From contig JAJYTF010000006.1 of NCBI GenBank assembly GCA_021793155.1, positions 1 to 64,000 on the forward strand: 64,000 nt of DNA, written 5' to 3'. The stretch comes from Pseudomonadota bacterium (lineage in GTDB: Bacteria > Pseudomonadota > Alphaproteobacteria > Rhodospirillales > Magnetospirillaceae). This document shows, in pieces, positions 49,930-57,491 of this stretch. Position numbers and translations under genes: made by a program. Positions within the stretch are counted from its first letter, which is position 1; the number at the start of each line of letters is the position of its first letter. Under the pieces are notes generated by a model. That model worked only from the letters and a program-made list of their open reading frames with translations. It ran no database searches and had not been told where the DNA came from.

Positions 49930-51054
49930 TCAACTGGCGGGCAAAGTGCCGGGCAACATCGTCTTTCTCAGCGACGGCGCCAGCAAGACCCAGGCCCCGA
50001 TGGCCGAGGGCAGCAAAGGCATCAGATATATCAGCGGGACCAGTGCGAGATGGCGTGTGGCAAGGTTCGAAACACCCAGGGCCATGGCCTGGATGGCGAC
50101 CATCAATCCGATGGCGAGGATCAGTCGGCGTCCCTGGCCGCGGCGGTTGAACCAGCCTGACAGGAGGCAGGCTGCGGCGACGAAGGCGAACGAGAAGTGG
50201 TACAGCGGTGATGCCAATCTCTGATGCCCCTCGACGCGGAATTGACGGAATTCCACCGGTCCAACCTCGTCCTCGGTCACCGAGAAGAGTTCCGCCGTGG
50301 GGCGCTCACGGGCATCCCGGCTTCGCTCCTCTGGGTTGCCCGTGGAGTCGGTGAATTCCATGGCATAATTGTCGAAATATAGCAACGAGAGGCGATCGGA
50401 ACCGCGCGTCACCTGCTGGCGGGTGCCGTTGATCATCAGCACCTTGGGCGTGCCGTTTTCCCCTTTGATCAGCGCCCCGCGCTCGGCCATCAAAGTCACC
50501 GTGCGCTCGGGGTTCCGGCGGTCATAGACGATGATGCCGAGCAACTCGCCTTTCGGGCTGCGGGCGCGCACATAGACGGTCAATCCGTCACCCATCTGGT
50601 TGAACTGGCCTTCCTGCAGCATCACGCTTGTGGCGTTGTTGCGCAGGGACCACTGCAAACGATGGAACTCCTCCACGGTTCGGGGGATCACCCAAACGTT
50701 CAGCACCAGTCCGATCACCGTGCTGGCTGCGGCAAGGAGCAAAGCGGGCCGGGCCAGCGTCCAGTGGCTTAAACCCGCCGCCCGAAGAACCACCAGTTCG
50801 CGATCGCTGATCAGCTTGTTGTAGGTGAACAGCACCACGGCGAACAGCGACACCGGCAGGATGACGGTGAGGAAGTTGGGCATCACCAAAAGGGTGAGTT
50901 TGAGGAATGTCCCGATGGATGCGCCCTTGTTTACGGTCACCTCGATGAAACGCAGCGATTGGGTCAGCCAAAGAATGGCGGTCAGGCCAATGGTGACCAG
51001 CACCATCCCCAAGGACATTTGACGCAGAATGTAGCGGACTATGGTGGCCCGCAT
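49930..51054 (-). CDS. lptF: LPS export ABC transporter permease LptF
   Basis: One of the two permeases that, with LptB, extract LPS from the inner membrane. The 374-residue protein has a first transmembrane region (LGMVLVTIGLTAILWLTQSLRFIEV), the coupling region YNKLISDRELVVLRAAGLSHW, and a periplasmic beta domain (about 130-260). Three C-terminal helices follow. The sequence is LptF-like rather than LptG-like. GGAGG lies eight bases before the ATG. lptD follows immediately. Confidence 0.9.
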   Translation of the reverse strand: MRATIVRYILRQMSLGMVLVTIGLTAILWLTQSLRFIEVTVNKGASIGTFLKLTLLVMPNFLTVILPVSLFAVVLFTYNKLISDRELVVLRAAGLSHWTLARPALLLAAASTVIGLVLNVWVIPRTVEEFHRLQWSLRNNATSVMLQEGQFNQMGDGLTVYVRARSPKGELLGIIVYDRRNPERTVTLMAERGALIKGENGTPKVLMINGTRQQVTRGSDRLSLLYFDNYAMEFTDSTGNPEERSRDARERPTAELFSVTEDEVGPVEFRQFRVEGHQRLASPLYHFSFAFVAAACLLSGWFNRRGQGRRLILAIGLMVAIQAMALGVSNLATRHLALVPLIYLMPLLPSAIGAWVLLAPSLRKTMLPGTLPAS

Positions 51055-51341: not shown

Positions 51342-52772
51342 TCAGAGAATCTTTCCCGGATTCATGATGCCCTGTGGATCGAAGGCCGCCTTGATACGCC
51401 GCATCAGTTCGACCTCCAGCGGCGCCTTGTAATGCGCCAGCTCGCCCTTTTTGAGCTGGCCGATGCCGTGTTCGGCGCTGATCGAGCCCCGCATCTCGAC
51501 GACGATGTCGTGGACGATGCGGTTCATCTCTTCCCAGCGGTCGAGGAAGGCCTGTTTGTCGGCTCCTGCCGGCTGGGTCAAATTGAAATGGATGTTGCCA
51601 TCGCCGAGATGGCCGAACGGCACCACGCGCACACCCCGCAGCGCCTGTTCCACCGCCACCGTCGCCCGGCGGATGAATTCCGGGACCGAGGAGGTGGGGA
51701 CGGAAACGTCATGCTTTATGCTGCCGCCCTCGCGCTTCTGGGCTTCCGGTATGTTCTCGCGGATGCGCCATAGCGCGTCGCGTTGGTCGAGCGACGAGGC
51801 GATCACCGCGTCGGCCACTTCGCCCTCTTCGAAGGCCGCCCCGAGCAAGGCTTCCATCATGTCCTGCAGCGACCCGTCGGGCCGCGAACTGGACAGCTCG
51901 ATCAGGGCGTACCATGGGTGCGGCGCGTCGAACGGATCTGTCACCCCGGGCACCAGGCGGCAGCCCATGTCCAGGCCGATGCGCGGCACCAGTTCGAAGG
52001 CCGTGACCTGGTCGCCGGTGGCGGCGCGGCCGCGAGCCAGCAGGGCCAGTGCGGCGTCCAGGTCGGTCAGCGCGCAAAAGGCGGTCTGCACTTCCCGCGG
52101 CTTGGGGAACAGCTTCAGCACGGCGGCGGTGATGATGCCCAGCGTGCCTTCGCCGCCGATGAACAGCTGCTTCAGGTCATAACCGGTGTTGTCTTTGCGC
52201 AGGCTTCTCAGGCCATCCCACACGCGGCCGTCGGGCAGCACCACCTCGAGCCCCAGCACCAGGTCGCGGGTGTTGCCGTAGCGCAGCACGCCCGACCCAC
52301 CGGCATTGGTCGAGATATTGCCGCCGATCTGGCAGCTGCCTTCGGCGCCCAGGCTCAAGGGGAACAGGCAGCCTGCCTCGTCAGCCGCCTGCTGCAGGCT
52401 CTCCAGAATCACCCCGGCGTCAACCGTGATGGTGAAATTCAGCGGGTCGACGGAGCGGATGCGGTTCATCCGCTGCAAGCTGAGGAGCACCTGATCACCT
52501 GAAGTGTCGGGTGCGGCGCCGCCGCACAGGCCGGTATTGCCGCCCTGCGGCACGATGCCGATTCCGGCCGCGGCGCAAAGGCGGACCACCTTCGCCGTCT
52601 CGGCGGTCGAGGCAGGACGCACCACCATGCGGGCGCGACCGTGGAACAGGCCGCGCTCCTCTTCCAGATAGGGTGCCATTTCGGTGGGATCGGCGATCAG
52701 GCCGTTGGGCCCGACCACGGCGGCGATGCGCGAAAGAAATTCGTCAGTCATGGGGAGAGGATGTAACGTCAA
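51342..52772 (-). CDS. FAD-linked 2-hydroxyacid dehydrogenase (GlcD/D2HGDH type)
   Basis: A 476-residue flavoprotein with a PCMH-type FAD-binding domain (PQGGNTGLCGGAAPDTSGDQVLLSL and GAEGSCQIGGNISTNAGGSG). A C-terminal FAD-linked oxidase domain ends in ISAEHGIGQLKKGELAHYK and FDPQGIMNPGKIL. Substrates in the family are D-lactate, glycolate and D-2-hydroxyglutarate. The length and lack of glcE/glcF neighbours favour a D-lactate or D-2-hydroxyglutarate dehydrogenase. It lies 52 bases downstream of tsaC on the same strand. Confidence 0.88.
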   Translation of the reverse strand: MTLHPLPMTDEFLSRIAAVVGPNGLIADPTEMAPYLEEERGLFHGRARMVVRPASTAETAKVVRLCAAAGIGIVPQGGNTGLCGGAAPDTSGDQVLLSLQRMNRIRSVDPLNFTITVDAGVILESLQQAADEAGCLFPLSLGAEGSCQIGGNISTNAGGSGVLRYGNTRDLVLGLEVVLPDGRVWDGLRSLRKDNTGYDLKQLFIGGEGTLGIITAAVLKLFPKPREVQTAFCALTDLDAALALLARGRAATGDQVTAFELVPRIGLDMGCRLVPGVTDPFDAPHPWYALIELSSSRPDGSLQDMMEALLGAAFEEGEVADAVIASSLDQRDALWRIRENIPEAQKREGGSIKHDVSVPTSSVPEFIRRATVAVEQALRGVRVVPFGHLGDGNIHFNLTQPAGADKQAFLDRWEEMNRIVHDIVVEMRGSISAEHGIGQLKKGELAHYKAPLEVELMRRIKAAFDPQGIMNPGKIL

Positions 52773-52824: not shown

Positions 52825-53775
52825 TTAGCGCTGTCCGCGCGGCGCGGCGGCTCGGCGCAGACGGTCGTTGATGGCGGCGCCCAGGTCGTGGTCGGGAATG
52901 GGCATGACGGCGATACCGGTGAACGGGGAACGGTCCAGGGCCCGCAGCATGGCGAACAGGTTGGCTGCGGCCTCTGTCAGGTCGCCGCGCTCGCTCAAAT
53001 TCATCTGGGCGCCCTCGGCCGGCCCGAATCCCAGCAGCGCCTCGCCGAGGCGTGCCGAGCGGGCGTCGAGGCGGACCGGAAGGCCGGGGGCGTAATGGCT
53101 GGACAACATGCCGGGTGAGCGCGGCCCCCCCAGGTCCGAAGCCTTGGCCAGGGCTACCGGGCCCAGTTCCTTTTCCAGGGTTTCGCGGGGAATGCCGCCG
53201 GGCCGGAGGAGAGTCGGAGTCTCGCCCGTCAGATCGAGGACGGTGGATTCGACGCCCACCGGACAGGGACCGCCGTCGAGGATCATCGCCAGTGTGCCGG
53301 TCAAGCCGTCGGCCACATGCCGGGCGTTGGTCGGGCTGACCCGCCCCGACGGGTTGGCGCTGGGCGCCGCAATCGGTCGGCCGGTGGCCAGCAGCAGCGC
53401 CAAGGCGACCGGATGCGCGGGGATGCGGACGGCGATGCTGTCCAGTCCGGCCGAGGCCAGCAGCGATACCGGCGAATCACTCCGCCGCGGCAGCACCAGG
53501 GTCAGCGGGCCGGGCCAGAAACACCCGGCCAGGCGTTCGGCGCGCGCGTCCCACTGGGCCAGATGTGCGACGCCGGCGACATCGGGTAAGTGGACGATCA
53601 GCGGGTTGAAGCTGGGGCGCCCCTTGGCGGCAAAAATAGCAGCGACGGCGCGATCATCGGTGGCGTCGCCGCCCAGGCCATAGACGGTCTCGGTGGGAAA
53701 GGCCACCAATTGACCCGATCGCAGCAGAAAGGCGGCTTTCTGGATGTTGGCCGGGGTGGCGGGGACAATCGGCAT
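52825..53775 (-). CDS. sua5: L-threonylcarbamoyladenylate synthase (Sua5 type)
   Basis: It makes threonylcarbamoyl-AMP for the t6A modification of ANN-decoding tRNAs. The 316-residue protein has the YrdC domain (LVAFPTETVYGLGGDATDDRAVAAIFAAKGRPSFNPLIVHL and SANPSGRVSPTNARHV). A C-terminal Sua5 domain (about 210-316) makes it longer than TsaC. The ATG is preceded by a possible TATATT -10 near 53800. A probable small RNA gene ends just upstream. Confidence 0.93.
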   Translation of the reverse strand: MPIVPATPANIQKAAFLLRSGQLVAFPTETVYGLGGDATDDRAVAAIFAAKGRPSFNPLIVHLPDVAGVAHLAQWDARAERLAGCFWPGPLTLVLPRRSDSPVSLLASAGLDSIAVRIPAHPVALALLLATGRPIAAPSANPSGRVSPTNARHVADGLTGTLAMILDGGPCPVGVESTVLDLTGETPTLLRPGGIPRETLEKELGPVALAKASDLGGPRSPGMLSSHYAPGLPVRLDARSARLGEALLGFGPAEGAQMNLSERGDLTEAAANLFAMLRALDRSPFTGIAVMPIPDHDLGAAINDRLRRAAAPRGQR

Positions 53776-53873
53776 CGGGCAGAACTTCAGTGCATCGTAA
53801 TATAAGACGTGCCGTCGGAAATGTACTTCACTGAACAGACAGGCGTCCGTTACAGCACTAATATACGTTTAAC

Positions 53874-54012
53874 ATAAAAGGGCCGCCGGTTTTGAGGGCG
53901 GCCCTTGTCTCGCTATTCTGTAGGATCGGACCACCGATCGTCGTGATCCGGAGCCAAGTCACCGCAAAGGCATGTGCGGCGGCTAATCATCGGACGATGT
54001 TCATCGTCCGCA
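53874..54012 (-). ncRNA. Candidate small RNA gene (about 139 nt)
   Basis: On the minus strand a promoter (TTGACT, 17 bases, CAATAT) predicts a start near 54012. The 3' end is the hairpin AAGGGCCGCC/GGCGGCCCTT followed by TTTTATG near 53875. Inside are the hairpin GGACGAT-GAAC-ATCGTCC and the stretches GCCGCCGCACATGCC and CCGATCGGTGGTCCGATCC. It has no start-stop frame worth calling. A terminator for cysQ abuts its promoter, so it looks like an independent unit. I could not match it to 6S, SRP RNA, tmRNA or RNase P RNA by eye. Confidence 0.5.
53879..53907 (-). terminator. Intrinsic terminator of the candidate small RNA
   Basis: A perfect 10-bp stem AAGGGCCGCC/GGCGGCCCTT with a nine-base loop; TTTTATG follows on the minus strand, two of the T residues being in the stem. 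Confidence 0.6.
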
Positions 54013-54018
54013 ATGTTT

Positions 54019-54047
54019 ATATTGTGACGGTTCTTTGAAAGAGTCAA
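54019..54047 (-). promoter_or_regulatory. Sigma-70-type promoter of the candidate small RNA
   Basis: TTGACT (54042-54047) and CAATAT (54019-54024) are spaced by exactly 17 bases on the minus strand. The -35 box abuts the T-run of the cysQ terminator. Confidence 0.55.
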
Positions 54048-54092
54048 GAAAAAGCCCGGGTTCGCAGACCAATGCGCAGTCATTTCCGGGCT
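54048..54092 (-). terminator. Intrinsic terminator of the MEMO-cysQ unit
   Basis: AGCCCGG (54086-54092) pairs with CCGGGCT (54053-54059) and is followed by TTTTT on the minus strand. An inner CGCA/TGCG pair closes part of the loop. The first arm lies within the last codons of cysQ. Confidence 0.7.
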
Positions 54093-54871
54093 GATTCGAG
54101 GGGGGTGGGGGTGCCCCAGGCCACGATGGGAGGATTTTCAAACCCTGGCTTGCCATAGGTCAGCGGGCTGCCGTCGGCCAGGGTGATGTCGCCGCCGGCG
54201 GCGCGCAGAATGGCGTGGCCGGCCGCCGTGTCCCATTCCATGGTGCGTCCGAAGCGCGGGTAGAGGTCCCCCTCGCCGGCGGCAATCAGGGCAAATTTCA
54301 GCGAACTGCCGGAATGGCGGATTTCAGCGACGGGAAAGTCGCCGATGAAGCTGTCGAAGCGCCCAGGATCGCGGTGTGATCTGCTGGACAGGACCACCAG
54401 CCCGCCGGCCGGAGGCTTTCGGCAGGCGATCGGCCGGGGCGGGGCGCCGCCGTCCTCGGCGGTGACCAGGCCCGGGCAGGCGGCGAACAGCCGATCGGGC
54501 ACCGGTGCGAAGATCACACCCACCAACGGTTTGCCGTCGACAATTAAGCCCATGTTGACGGTGAACTCGCCGTTGCGCTTGACGAACTCCTTGGTCCCGT
54601 CCAGCGGGTCGACCAGCCAGAAACGGCCACCGGCCAGGTCAACGACCTTTCCGGCCGCCGCCGCTTCCTCGGAAACCACCGGAATGTCGGGGGTTAGCCG
54701 CTCGAGGCCGGCCAGGATGACCTGTTCCGAGCGCAGGTCGGCTTCGGTCACCGGCGACGCGTCCGCTTTTGCCTCGACGGCAAAATCGCTGCGGTAGACC
54801 TCGAGGACAGCGGCGCCGGCCTCGCGGGCCAGCCGGCGCAATGGCGGCAGAAGAGCGGTAAAATCGGTCAT
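54080..54871 (-). CDS. cysQ: 3'(2'),5'-bisphosphate nucleotidase
   Basis: An inositol-monophosphatase-fold enzyme of about 263 residues. It hydrolyses PAP, a by-product of sulfate assimilation, to AMP. It has metal-binding motifs SEEAAAAG and WLVDPLDGTKEFVKRNGEFTVN, and WDTAAGHAILRAAGG near the C-terminus. The GTKEF form of the second motif favours CysQ over inositol monophosphatase. The ATG overlaps the stop of the MEMO-AMMECR1 gene as ATGA, so the two are coupled. Confidence 0.9.
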   Translation of the reverse strand: MTDFTALLPPLRRLAREAGAAVLEVYRSDFAVEAKADASPVTEADLRSEQVILAGLERLTPDIPVVSEEAAAAGKVVDLAGGRFWLVDPLDGTKEFVKRNGEFTVNMGLIVDGKPLVGVIFAPVPDRLFAACPGLVTAEDGGAPPRPIACRKPPAGGLVVLSSRSHRDPGRFDSFIGDFPVAEIRHSGSSLKFALIAAGEGDLYPRFGRTMEWDTAAGHAILRAAGGDITLADGSPLTYGKPGFENPPIVAWGTPTPLESARK

Positions 54872-56241
54872 CGGATATCCTCGGTGGCGAAGCGGTAGGC
54901 GCGCAGGTTGGGCGACCAGTGGGTCGGCGCAAGGCCGGCCTTGCGCTTGAGTTGGGCGAGAAAATCCCGCGGCTCGGGCAGAACCTTCCAAACCGCCGGC
55001 AGGAACAGGGCTCGGTACTGGCCATCCTCGATGATCAGTCCGTCCGCATGCGGGCGAAGTTTGGCCACCAGGTCGGCCTCGTCGGCGGCGATGATCAATT
55101 GCGGAGCGGTGAGTACCGAAATCGATAGATCGGTATCCGTCCATTCGTCTTCCGTCATCGGCGGGAAGCGCGGGTCCTCGAATGCGGCCCGTAGCGCGTT
55201 CTCGGCGACATCGGCGGCCAGCGGGCGCCAGGCTGTGGTCGAGCCGATGCACCCCCTGAGCTCGCCGTGGTGCATCAATGTGACGAAGGTGGCCCCCGCG
55301 GCCAGCAGGGCAGGCGGCAGGTCGCCGGGCATTTCCGACGGGCCGCCGCTCTTCAGGCGCTTTTCGATGGCCGAGCGGGCGATCGACAGGAGTTGCGCCG
55401 CATGTTGGTGCAAGGATGCTCTTCCGGAGTCCGTGTCCGCCGCGGTTTCCGGTTCGGTGAAGCACCAGGCGCCGTAACCGACGACCTGGTCGCGCGGCCC
55501 GGCGGTGTCGCCGGAATTGCGCAGGTCCACCGTTTCCACGGTGAGATCGCGCCGCCGGGCGACCGTCAGCAGGCCGGCGATCGGAAGGCGCCCGCAGGCC
55601 TGGTCGAAGGTGATGGCGGCGGGGTCGAGCCGCTCGATGGCGTCGCGGGTGGCTAGGTCGACGCCGCGCGCGGCCTTGTAGTCCAGGTAGTGGCTCAAGT
55701 CCGAACTGACGACGATCAATGTCTCCGACCCGCCCCACAGGGCGTCCAGCACCGCCGCCACGGAGTCTGCCGAGGCGTCGCCGACTACCAGCGGCACCAG
55801 GGTGAAGCGGTCGAAGATGGCCTGCAGGAACGGCAGATGCACTTCCAGGCTATGTTCCTCGCTATGGGCCGCGTCCAGGACAGCAACGCCGGGCAGGACG
55901 AGCAGGCCGTTGATGCTGTCGCGATCGACGTTGATGCGCCCCAGCGGCGTATCGAAAGCGTCGGCCGAACTGGCCGCGATGCCTCGGAAGGCGACACGGT
56001 GGGACGGCCCGACCAGAACCACCCGCGAGACGTCGTGGCGCGCCGGGATCAGCCGCGCATAGACCGAAGCCGCGACGGGGCCTGAGTAAATATACCCGGC
56101 ATGCGGGGCGATGATTGCTTTGGGGCGGGCGGCTCCCGGCCTGGCGGCGGAGTCGAGCAGGGAACGGACATCCCGCGCCAGCGTGGCCGGATCGGCGGGG
56201 TAGAACATGCCGGCGACGGCCGGACTGCGGACGAAACCCAT
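54868..56241 (-). CDS. MEMO-AMMECR1 fusion protein (AmmeMemoRadiSam proteins B and A)
   Basis: The product of about 457 residues fuses two domains. The MEMO domain (residues 1 to about 275) has AGMFYPADPATLARDV, IIAPHAGYIYSGPVAASVYARL and DAAHSEEHSLEVHLPFLQ. The AMMECR1 domain (about 285-457) has TFVTLMHHGELRGCIGST and DLSISVLTAP. These are two of the three parts of the AmmeMemoRadiSam system, whose biochemical role is unsettled. The radical-SAM partner is not in the window. ATG 56241 follows AGGAGG by six bases. cysQ overlaps its stop. Confidence 0.9.
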   Translation of the reverse strand: MGFVRSPAVAGMFYPADPATLARDVRSLLDSAARPGAARPKAIIAPHAGYIYSGPVAASVYARLIPARHDVSRVVLVGPSHRVAFRGIAASSADAFDTPLGRINVDRDSINGLLVLPGVAVLDAAHSEEHSLEVHLPFLQAIFDRFTLVPLVVGDASADSVAAVLDALWGGSETLIVVSSDLSHYLDYKAARGVDLATRDAIERLDPAAITFDQACGRLPIAGLLTVARRRDLTVETVDLRNSGDTAGPRDQVVGYGAWCFTEPETAADTDSGRASLHQHAAQLLSIARSAIEKRLKSGGPSEMPGDLPPALLAAGATFVTLMHHGELRGCIGSTTAWRPLAADVAENALRAAFEDPRFPPMTEDEWTDTDLSISVLTAPQLIIAADEADLVAKLRPHADGLIIEDGQYRALFLPAVWKVLPEPRDFLAQLKRKAGLAPTHWSPNLRAYRFATEDIR

Positions 56242-56276
56242 GGACGGCCTCCTCATCGACTGCGGGCCGGCAGCTT

Positions 56277-56344
56277 CGTCATCCCCGCGGAAGCGGGGAT
56301 CCAGGCGACGGAATGGATGGATCCCCGCTGCCGCGGGGATGACG
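56277..56344. repeat. Dispersed palindromic repeat (CGTCATCCCCGCGG type), intact copy
   Basis: Arms of 27 bases at 56277-56303 and 56318-56344 are inverted copies with one mismatch (CGTCATCCCCGCGGAAGCGG at the left end). The loop is 14 bases. It lies between aroC and the MEMO gene, both on the minus strand, and could form a strong cruciform or RNA hairpin. Confidence 0.85.
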
Positions 56345-56408
56345 GGTGAAAGCAGGCTTAGCTAACCGCCCTCGTGCCCAATTGTAAAGGTCTCGCGCCC
56401 GAGGACCT

Positions 56409-57491
56409 TCAATAGGTCAGCGCCCGCTGGCGCAGCAGATGGTCGGCCAAGGTTACCGCCAGCATCGCCTCGGCCACCGGAACGCCGCGAATGGCGACGC
56501 AAGGATCGTGGCGGCCTTTGGTCGACACCTCGACGTCGTGGCCGTGGCGATCCACGCTTCGGCGGGGCGTCAGGATCGAACTGGTGGGTTTGAGCGCCAT
56601 GCGGGCGATGATGGGCTGCCCGGTGGATATCCCGCCCAGGATGCCGCCGGCGCGGTTCGACAGGAAGCGTACGCGATCGCCGTTCATCCGCATCTCGTCA
56701 GCGTTCTCTTCGCCCGACAGGGCGGCGGCGGCGAAGCCTTCGCCGATTTCAACGCCCTTGACGGCATTGATGCTCATCAGGGCCTTGGCAATGTCGGCAT
56801 CCAACTTATCGTAGACCGGGTCACCAAGCCCCGCCGGCAGGTTGTCGGCCACCACCTCGACCACGCCGCCGGTCGACGAGCCGGCCTTGCGGACCTCGTC
56901 GAGATAGGTTTCCCACAATCGGGCGGCCGTCGCGTCGGGGCACCAGAAGGGATTGTTGGCCAGTTCGGCCCAATCCCAGTTGCCGCGGTCGATCTTGTGC
57001 GGCCCCATCTGCACCAGGGCGCCACGAATGGTCACGCCGCCCGGGAGCAGGGTGTCGAGGACGCGACGGGCGACCGCGCCGGCGGCCACCCGGGTGGCCG
57101 TCTCGCGGGCCGAGGCGCGGCCGCCGCCCCGGTAGTCGCGGATGCCGTATTTGGCCTGATAGGCGTAGTCGGCGTGGCCGGGCCGGAAGCTGTCGGCGAT
57201 GTCCGAATAATCCTTGGACCGCTGGTCGGTGTTCTCGATCACCAGGGCGATGGGGGTGCCGGTGGTCTGCCCCTCGAATACGCCGGACAGAATCTTCACC
57301 TGGTCGGCTTCGCGGCGCTGGGTGGTGAAGCGGCTCTGGCCGGGTTTGCGCTTATCCAGCCAGGGCTGGATATGGGACTCGGCCAACGGGATGCGGGGTG
57401 GGACACCGTCGATCACGCAGCCGATCGCCGGACCGTGGCTTTCGCCGAAGGTGGTGAACCGGAACAGCGTGCCGAAAGCGTTTCCCGCCAT
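56409..57491 (-). CDS. aroC: Chorismate synthase
   Basis: It converts EPSP to chorismate, the last shikimate step, with reduced FMN. The 360-residue protein carries the three family signatures: [17 protein letters not shown], the [27 protein letters not shown] segment, and the C-terminal [20 protein letters not shown]. It starts three bases after the fabI stop, forming a fabI-aroC operon. Confidence 0.96.

Follow-up and report, generated by a model that had tools for sequence, protein, structure and literature searches.

In the 64,000-nucleotide stretch of DNA analysed here (the window, G000:C37:1-64000, G000 being the source genome), parts A and B of the AmmeMemoRadiSam system form one polypeptide chain. 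The reading that we consider probable is that the single TIGR04337 radical-SAM protein (rSAM) of this genome serves as the third part in trans, and that cysQ, which follows the fusion gene, is merely the next gene of an inherited block. We assigned the genes to the AmmeMemoRadiSam system because the components co-occur, A and B are fused, and the residues that bind iron in human MEMO1 are conserved.

The fusion protein of 457 amino acids is encoded by a single gene on the minus strand (56241-54868), and the gene coordinates were verified. An in-frame alternative ATG is present at 56256, but it is the ATG at 56241 that is preceded by GAGGAGG. Residues 5-261 (55459-56229, minus strand) matched the MEMO profile TIGR04336 (AmmeMemoRadiSam system protein B) at 259 bits with a cut-off of 26, and residues 283-454 (54880-55395, minus strand) matched the AMMECR1 profile TIGR04335 (system protein A) at 196 bits with a cut-off of 99. 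A Pfam domain search agreed with this assignment. Both profiles exceeded their cut-offs in one frame, confirming an earlier note on this DNA, which had described MEMO and AMMECR1 as one polypeptide. Moreover, 28 of 40 other genomes aligned to the protein in one frame, free of stops and over both domains (51-78% identity), and the single reading frame is therefore not a product of chance.

The predicted structure of the fusion protein had a mean pLDDT of 93 and a pTM of 0.67, with a pLDDT of 68 for the linker (residues 261-280). As modelled, each domain is reliable but the mutual placing of the two is not, and we left this placing loose because of the pTM value and the weak linker. In a fold search, MEMO1 and three AMMECR1-family structures were matched, and extradiol dioxygenases gave weaker matches. 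The MEMO domain shares its fold (TM-score by target length 0.80) and three iron ligands with human MEMO1 (PDB 7kq8), although the identity in the fold match was 27% and the 294-residue human chain is without an AMMECR1 part. Similarly, the AMMECR1 domain has the fold of PH0010 (PDB 1vaj; TM-score by target length 0.80), with 38% identity and a common LRGCIG motif, but PH0010 is a stand-alone chain. This motif, which we take to be the signature of the AMMECR1 family, contains Cys331 (codon at 55249-55251, minus strand). All of its residues except the Ile were invariant in two alignments of 19 and 48 sequences, and C331 is a candidate reactive cysteine.

Human MEMO1 coordinates iron with H49, H81 and C244 according to the accessible part of the published account (PMC11081632). 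In a profile alignment these correspond to H47, H81 and C216 of the window protein, so that the His, His, Cys ligand set is present in the fusion protein. Their codons are found at 56101-56103 (His47), 55999-56001 (His81) and 55594-55596 (Cys216, in the sequence ACGR), all on the minus strand. The three residues were invariant in both alignments (19 and 48 sequences), and the position of Cys216 is occupied by Ser in the C244S MEMO1 structure 7m8h. Judged from its sequence, the MEMO domain would hold one Fe(II) through H47, H81 and C216. Alternatively, the domain could be a LigB-type extradiol dioxygenase that uses O2. DesB and an aminophenol dioxygenase were among its fold matches (E 1.6e-6 to 1.1e-5) and two His ligands are conserved, both of which are in line with such an activity. 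However, LigB-type enzymes bind iron through two His and one Glu, as stated in the accessible part of PMC11081632, and the third position here is Cys216 instead of Glu. The same part of that source describes human MEMO1 as lacking dioxygenase activity on the standard substrates tried. In addition, AMMECR1 is listed, in the available part of PMC13386939, as one of seven anaerobe-marker Pfams, present in 3.38% of 4,227 aerobes versus 50.66% of 1,293 anaerobes, and this prevalence in anaerobes argues against an obligatory O2-using dioxygenase. We consider a dioxygenase unlikely.

The fusion itself is ordinary, and the locus is an unremarkable example of a known but unsolved system. In a sample of 41 genomes of the order (the source and 40 relatives), 29, including the source, matched the fusion as a single stretch over both domains; G019, G027, G029 and G038 matched in two pieces, G037 in the AMMECR1 part only, and 7 of the 41 gave no match. 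A contig scan with two patterns from the MEMO part yielded at least 588 stretches, at least 585 of them confirmed, and the best 80 were kept, a choice by score that favours fused and near rows. With the addition of 30 loci from the source and its relatives and the removal of a duplicate (L035, the same as L009), 109 rows were obtained. AMMECR1 was fused in 95 of these and separate in 14, and the tree of the 109 rows required five changes between the two states, the rows in both cases being the best 80 of at least 585 together with the loci of the order itself. The unfused arrangement was checked in the best 30 MEMO matches of a phylum sample, where 7 were fused (the window among them), 22 had an adjacent AMMECR1 in its own frame, and no AMMECR1 was seen in the locus of the remaining one. 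Among the rows listed, the rSAM gene mostly faces the MEMO gene in loci of gammaproteobacterial type and comes after it in those of betaproteobacterial type. Four loci labelled Stygiobacter, Kuenenia, Rhizobium and Planctomycetaceae (L037, L085, L086 and L096) grouped with proteobacterial rows on the tree, and are possibly misbinned contigs or cases of transfer.

We located the radical-SAM partner elsewhere in the source genome. The sole TIGR04337 match was intact and scored 644 bits (cut-off 220) on contig C64, while the window is on C37, in keeping with the earlier note, which had placed this partner outside the window and proposed finding its gene in the genome. On C64 the rSAM gene adjoins LPGS, a gene with an LPG_synthase_TM domain, and the leucyl aminopeptidase gene pepA. 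All three components of the AmmeMemoRadiSam system (TIGR04335, TIGR04336 and TIGR04337; amrA, amrB and amrS) are thus over their cut-offs in the source genome. The arrangement differs from the known system in that A and B are one chain and the rSAM gene, on C64 rather than C37, is not adjacent; three genes at a single locus are a common trait of the system, which we did not hold to be required.

Occurrence of the components across genomes was closely matched. In the order sample, a MEMO/AMMECR1 match was found in 34 of 41 genomes and rSAM over the cut-off in 35 of 41, and 33 of the 34 genomes with MEMO and/or AMMECR1 also had rSAM. The exceptions were G037, with AMMECR1 only, and G010 and G036, with rSAM only, and these three genomes are 82-88% complete. 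Neither MEMO/AMMECR1 nor rSAM was found in G013, G016 (a genome of 0.9 Mb) and G023, all at least 92% complete, and MEMO was likewise missing from G031 (82% complete) and G039 (63%), as was any rSAM over the cut-off. The phylum sample consisted of 150 genomes, each at least 90% complete and weighted to a few families. MEMO and rSAM were both present in 59 of these and both absent from 88; MEMO alone was seen in G149 and rSAM alone in G062 and G167, so that the two agree in 147 of 150 genomes. Fisher tests on the co-occurrence of MEMO, rSAM and CysQ ignore kinship. The claim of the earlier note that the components act together is well supported by the fusion, the mostly adjacent unfused copies and the co-occurrence of MEMO and rSAM; its further claim of a fixed ratio holds for MEMO and AMMECR1, which are one chain, but not beyond these two. 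Multiple MEMO matches, placed on separate contigs, were observed in G070, G074, G077, G081, G097, G101, G109, G129, G133, G141 and G157. Several of the genomes with multiple MEMO matches also had a weaker TIGR04337 match (about 367-397 bits), which suggests a divergent second AmmeMemoRadiSam system.

In all five members of the genus that were examined (G000-G004), the rSAM gene was on a different contig from the fusion, as might be seen if the fusion had been cut loose from rSAM in this genus and worked alone. This is highly improbable in our judgement. Four of these genomes have an intact rSAM gene (629-645 bits), that of G002 being a piece at a contig end, and rSAM was kept with MEMO/AMMECR1 in all but one of the order genomes counted above. 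Separation is also not peculiar to the genus: in 11 of the 33 order genomes with both genes, rSAM was more than 5 kb from the fusion or on another contig, and in G018, G020, G024, G032 and G040 the two were apart with neither gene lost. A third part acting in trans is the reading we retain for the genus.

The gene following the fusion, cysQ (54080-54871, minus strand), encodes a predicted 3'(2'),5'-bisphosphate nucleotidase of 263 amino acids that scored 270 bits with TIGR01331 (cut-off 228.8). No second cysQ in the source genome exceeded the cut-off, and three weaker relatives scored 110, 97 and 78 bits. The protein resembles CysQ in scoring over this cut-off, and only its place beside the fusion is unusual, a place that is common to many genomes of the order. 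The ATGA overlap reported earlier was confirmed at 54868-54871 (minus strand), which reads ccgATGAccg, the TGA stop of the fusion overlapping the ATG start of cysQ. ATGA occurs in G000 and G001, a GTGA of like kind is possible in G002 and G003, and a gap of some tens of bases separates the two genes in G004; coupling of the fusion with cysQ is therefore a within-genus feature on top of an older gene order. A scan of 53700-56500 for promoters gave no sigma-70-like site, and the count of terminator-like elements in this region was near chance (2, with 1.7 expected).

That older order is a larger block, which we pieced together from partial loci. Its two halves diverge, with holC-pepA-LPGS-rSAM to the left and fusion-cysQ-sua5-FAD oxidase-lptF-lptD to the right (holC and lptD were named by the look of their sequences alone), and the window carries the right half. 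Family scans confirmed three further members in the window, all on the minus strand. A sua5-type L-threonylcarbamoyladenylate synthase with Sua5 domains follows at 52825-53775 (TIGR00057, 187 bits, cut-off 123.2). A FAD-linked oxidase of the GlcD kind at 51342-52772 was over the cut-offs of PF02913 and PF01565, with a TIGR00387 score below the GlcD cut-off (269 of 567.9 bits). The LPS export permease LptF is encoded at 49930-51054 (TIGR04407, 261 bits, cut-off 230). Genes recurring around the fusion in 80 longer loci were sua5 (18), the FAD oxidase (17), pepA (14), holC (10), LPGS (9) and LptF/G (7).

We then compared how well neighbours are retained in the order. Where a genome had both the fusion and cysQ, their distance was at most 5 kb in 26 of 33 cases and at most 0.4 kb in 19, and all 26 close pairs shared a strand. 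The fusion and rSAM were this close (5 kb) in 22 of the 33 genomes that have the two genes, and never shared a strand; cysQ and sua5, within 5 kb in 28 of 36, were retained about as well as the fusion and cysQ. All three counts are lower bounds in draft genomes since genes on different contigs were counted as apart, and an extra cysQ piece under the cut-off at a contig end of G017 was left out. The earlier note had named random neighbours of the fusion as what would refute its view; in the order, the place of cysQ beside it is not random.

Individual genomes show how the block comes apart. In G016 and G013, which are without the fusion, sua5, the FAD oxidase and lptF still come after cysQ, at a distance of 3.3 kb in G013, and in G023, also without it, sua5 and cysQ are on different contigs. 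In G005 and G008 cysQ is elsewhere and the fusion keeps sua5 nearby, and cysQ is likewise away from the fusion in G014, G019 and G020. In G007 (L150, L154) the rSAM-fusion pair is found elsewhere, and pepA-LPGS directly faces cysQ-sua5-FAD oxidase-lptF; rSAM and the fusion apparently left the block together. In the clade of the window the block is broken between rSAM and the fusion. The rSAM gene lies beside LPGS (plus pepA where the locus reaches) in G000, G001, G003, G004, G024 and G020, and aroC lies upstream of the fusion in G000, G001, G004, G024, G020 and L034; the short flanks seen for G002 and G003 showed no aroC. A break at this point in the genus would have separated fusion-cysQ-sua5 from pepA-LPGS-rSAM. 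Adjacency of rSAM and the fusion has been lost in several lineages (G018, G032, G040 and the clade of the window) with both genes kept, and the spacer that separates them may be prone to repeated breakage.

The aroC-fusion spacer of the window contains a palindromic element (56279-56342) made of two head-to-head GGATCCCCGC-N5-CGGGGATGA units, and the RNA fold of this spacer had a z of -5.8. The genome has 16 such units with at most one mismatch, and none of a reversed control pattern; the element is a dispersed REP-like repeat. A repeat-mediated break between rSAM and the fusion was rejected, as no such element was found in the 18 kb examined around rSAM.

Beyond the order, cysQ lay downstream of the fusion in 38 of the 65 rows listed for one part of the tree, which is mostly alphaproteobacterial, and in none of the 44 outside it, some of which are alphaproteobacterial too. 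The fork delimiting this part had a support of 83 and was unstarred. Many loci have a flank of 1.5 kb or reach a contig end, so that absences of cysQ are partly censored; we therefore counted as judgeable those rows with at least 5 kb seen downstream or with cysQ within 5 kb. Of these 79 rows, 47 are inside this part, 37 of them with cysQ, and 32 are outside it, all without cysQ. Four changes on the tree suffice for the 79 judgeable rows listed, and repeated independent gain of the cysQ neighbour was rejected. Weak cysQ-like matches in L046, L073 and L082 (28-30% identity, 7-9 kb away) were not accepted as cysQ.

In the phylum sample, 2 of the 60 MEMO genomes (G000 and G143) had a CysQ that passed the cut-off, versus 57 of the 90 without MEMO. 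For some genomes the choice of cut-off decides whether CysQ counts as missing; one is the MEMO genome G109, whose CysQ match scored 206 bits and fell below it. Over the 150 genomes the two were strongly opposed (both 2, MEMO only 58, CysQ only 57, neither 33); this opposition is kinship at least in part, and perhaps only kinship. The AmmeMemoRadiSam system is independent of CysQ, because 58 of the 60 MEMO genomes have no CysQ over the cut-off.

These data bear on whether CysQ is a functional partner, with the system making or consuming a 3'-phosphorylated (PAP-like) nucleotide and translational coupling keeping the two in step. The non-random neighbourhood in the order, with its constant strand, the ATGA and possible GTGA overlaps, and the retention of cysQ beside the fusion where rSAM has moved off (G000-G004, G018, G024, G032 and G040) agree with such a partnership. 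Nevertheless, we find it very unlikely, as none of the 44 rows listed outside the mostly alphaproteobacterial part has the neighbour (32 of them with at least 5 kb seen downstream), CysQ over the cut-off is rare in the MEMO genomes of the phylum sample, the cysQ-sua5 pair is conserved about as well as fusion-cysQ, and CysQ is present in G013, G016 and G023, three genomes devoid of MEMO and rSAM. The connection with nucleotide or sulfur metabolism that had been drawn from the overlap is unsupported, since the adjacency is limited to a clade and part of a larger inherited block, cysQ keeps sua5 in G013 and G016 without the fusion, and nearly all MEMO genomes of the phylum sample have no CysQ over the cut-off. 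The neighbour looks real but clade-limited and inherited, and not a working partner. Selection for coupled expression of the fusion with cysQ may still operate, because fusion-cysQ was kept more often than fusion-rSAM and because of the ATGA and possible GTGA overlaps.

It is also conceivable, although we give this very little credence, that in the alphaproteobacterial clade the system was recruited to nucleotide/tRNA metabolism, with the fusion, CysQ and the Sua5-type synthase as an expression unit in which CysQ would clear a 3'-phosphate by-product of a nucleotide-like substrate. Were this so, a different phosphatase would do the task of CysQ in other lineages that do not have it. The abstract of a 2019 JBC paper by Burroughs on the PCAD-Memo superfamily reportedly points to nucleotide-base and isoprenoid modification. 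In the literature searched, with most subscription papers outside the search, we found no description of a fusion-cysQ link. The available part of PMC9062700 names both cysQ and AmmeMemoRadiSam, in two different figure legends; it has amrS, amrB and amrA as separate genes, in a legend within a section on the urease system.

Taking the system to be a three-part unit with rSAM in trans, its parts may work on a shared substrate. Going by their association, the AMMECR1 domain with its invariant C331 would bind or carry the same substrate as the MEMO domain, and rSAM would make or use a radical intermediate of it. The tether between A and B would hand the substrate from one domain to the other. CysQ is predicted to be a housekeeping PAP phosphatase, probably read after the fusion as the next gene of the inherited block.

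The primary molecular function of human MEMO1 is called unknown in the accessible part of PMC11081632, and AMMECR1 is described, in that of PMC6393860, as a family found in 429 of 524 archaeal genomes and a priority uncharacterised protein. MEMO and AMMECR1 are thus widespread, unsolved proteins. Our analysis removes a tempting but weak clue from cysQ and strengthens the three-part unit, in which A and B are fused and rSAM is in trans yet co-inherited. Because the bacterial protein retains the iron ligands of its human counterpart, biochemical work could be carried out on a single bacterial chain.
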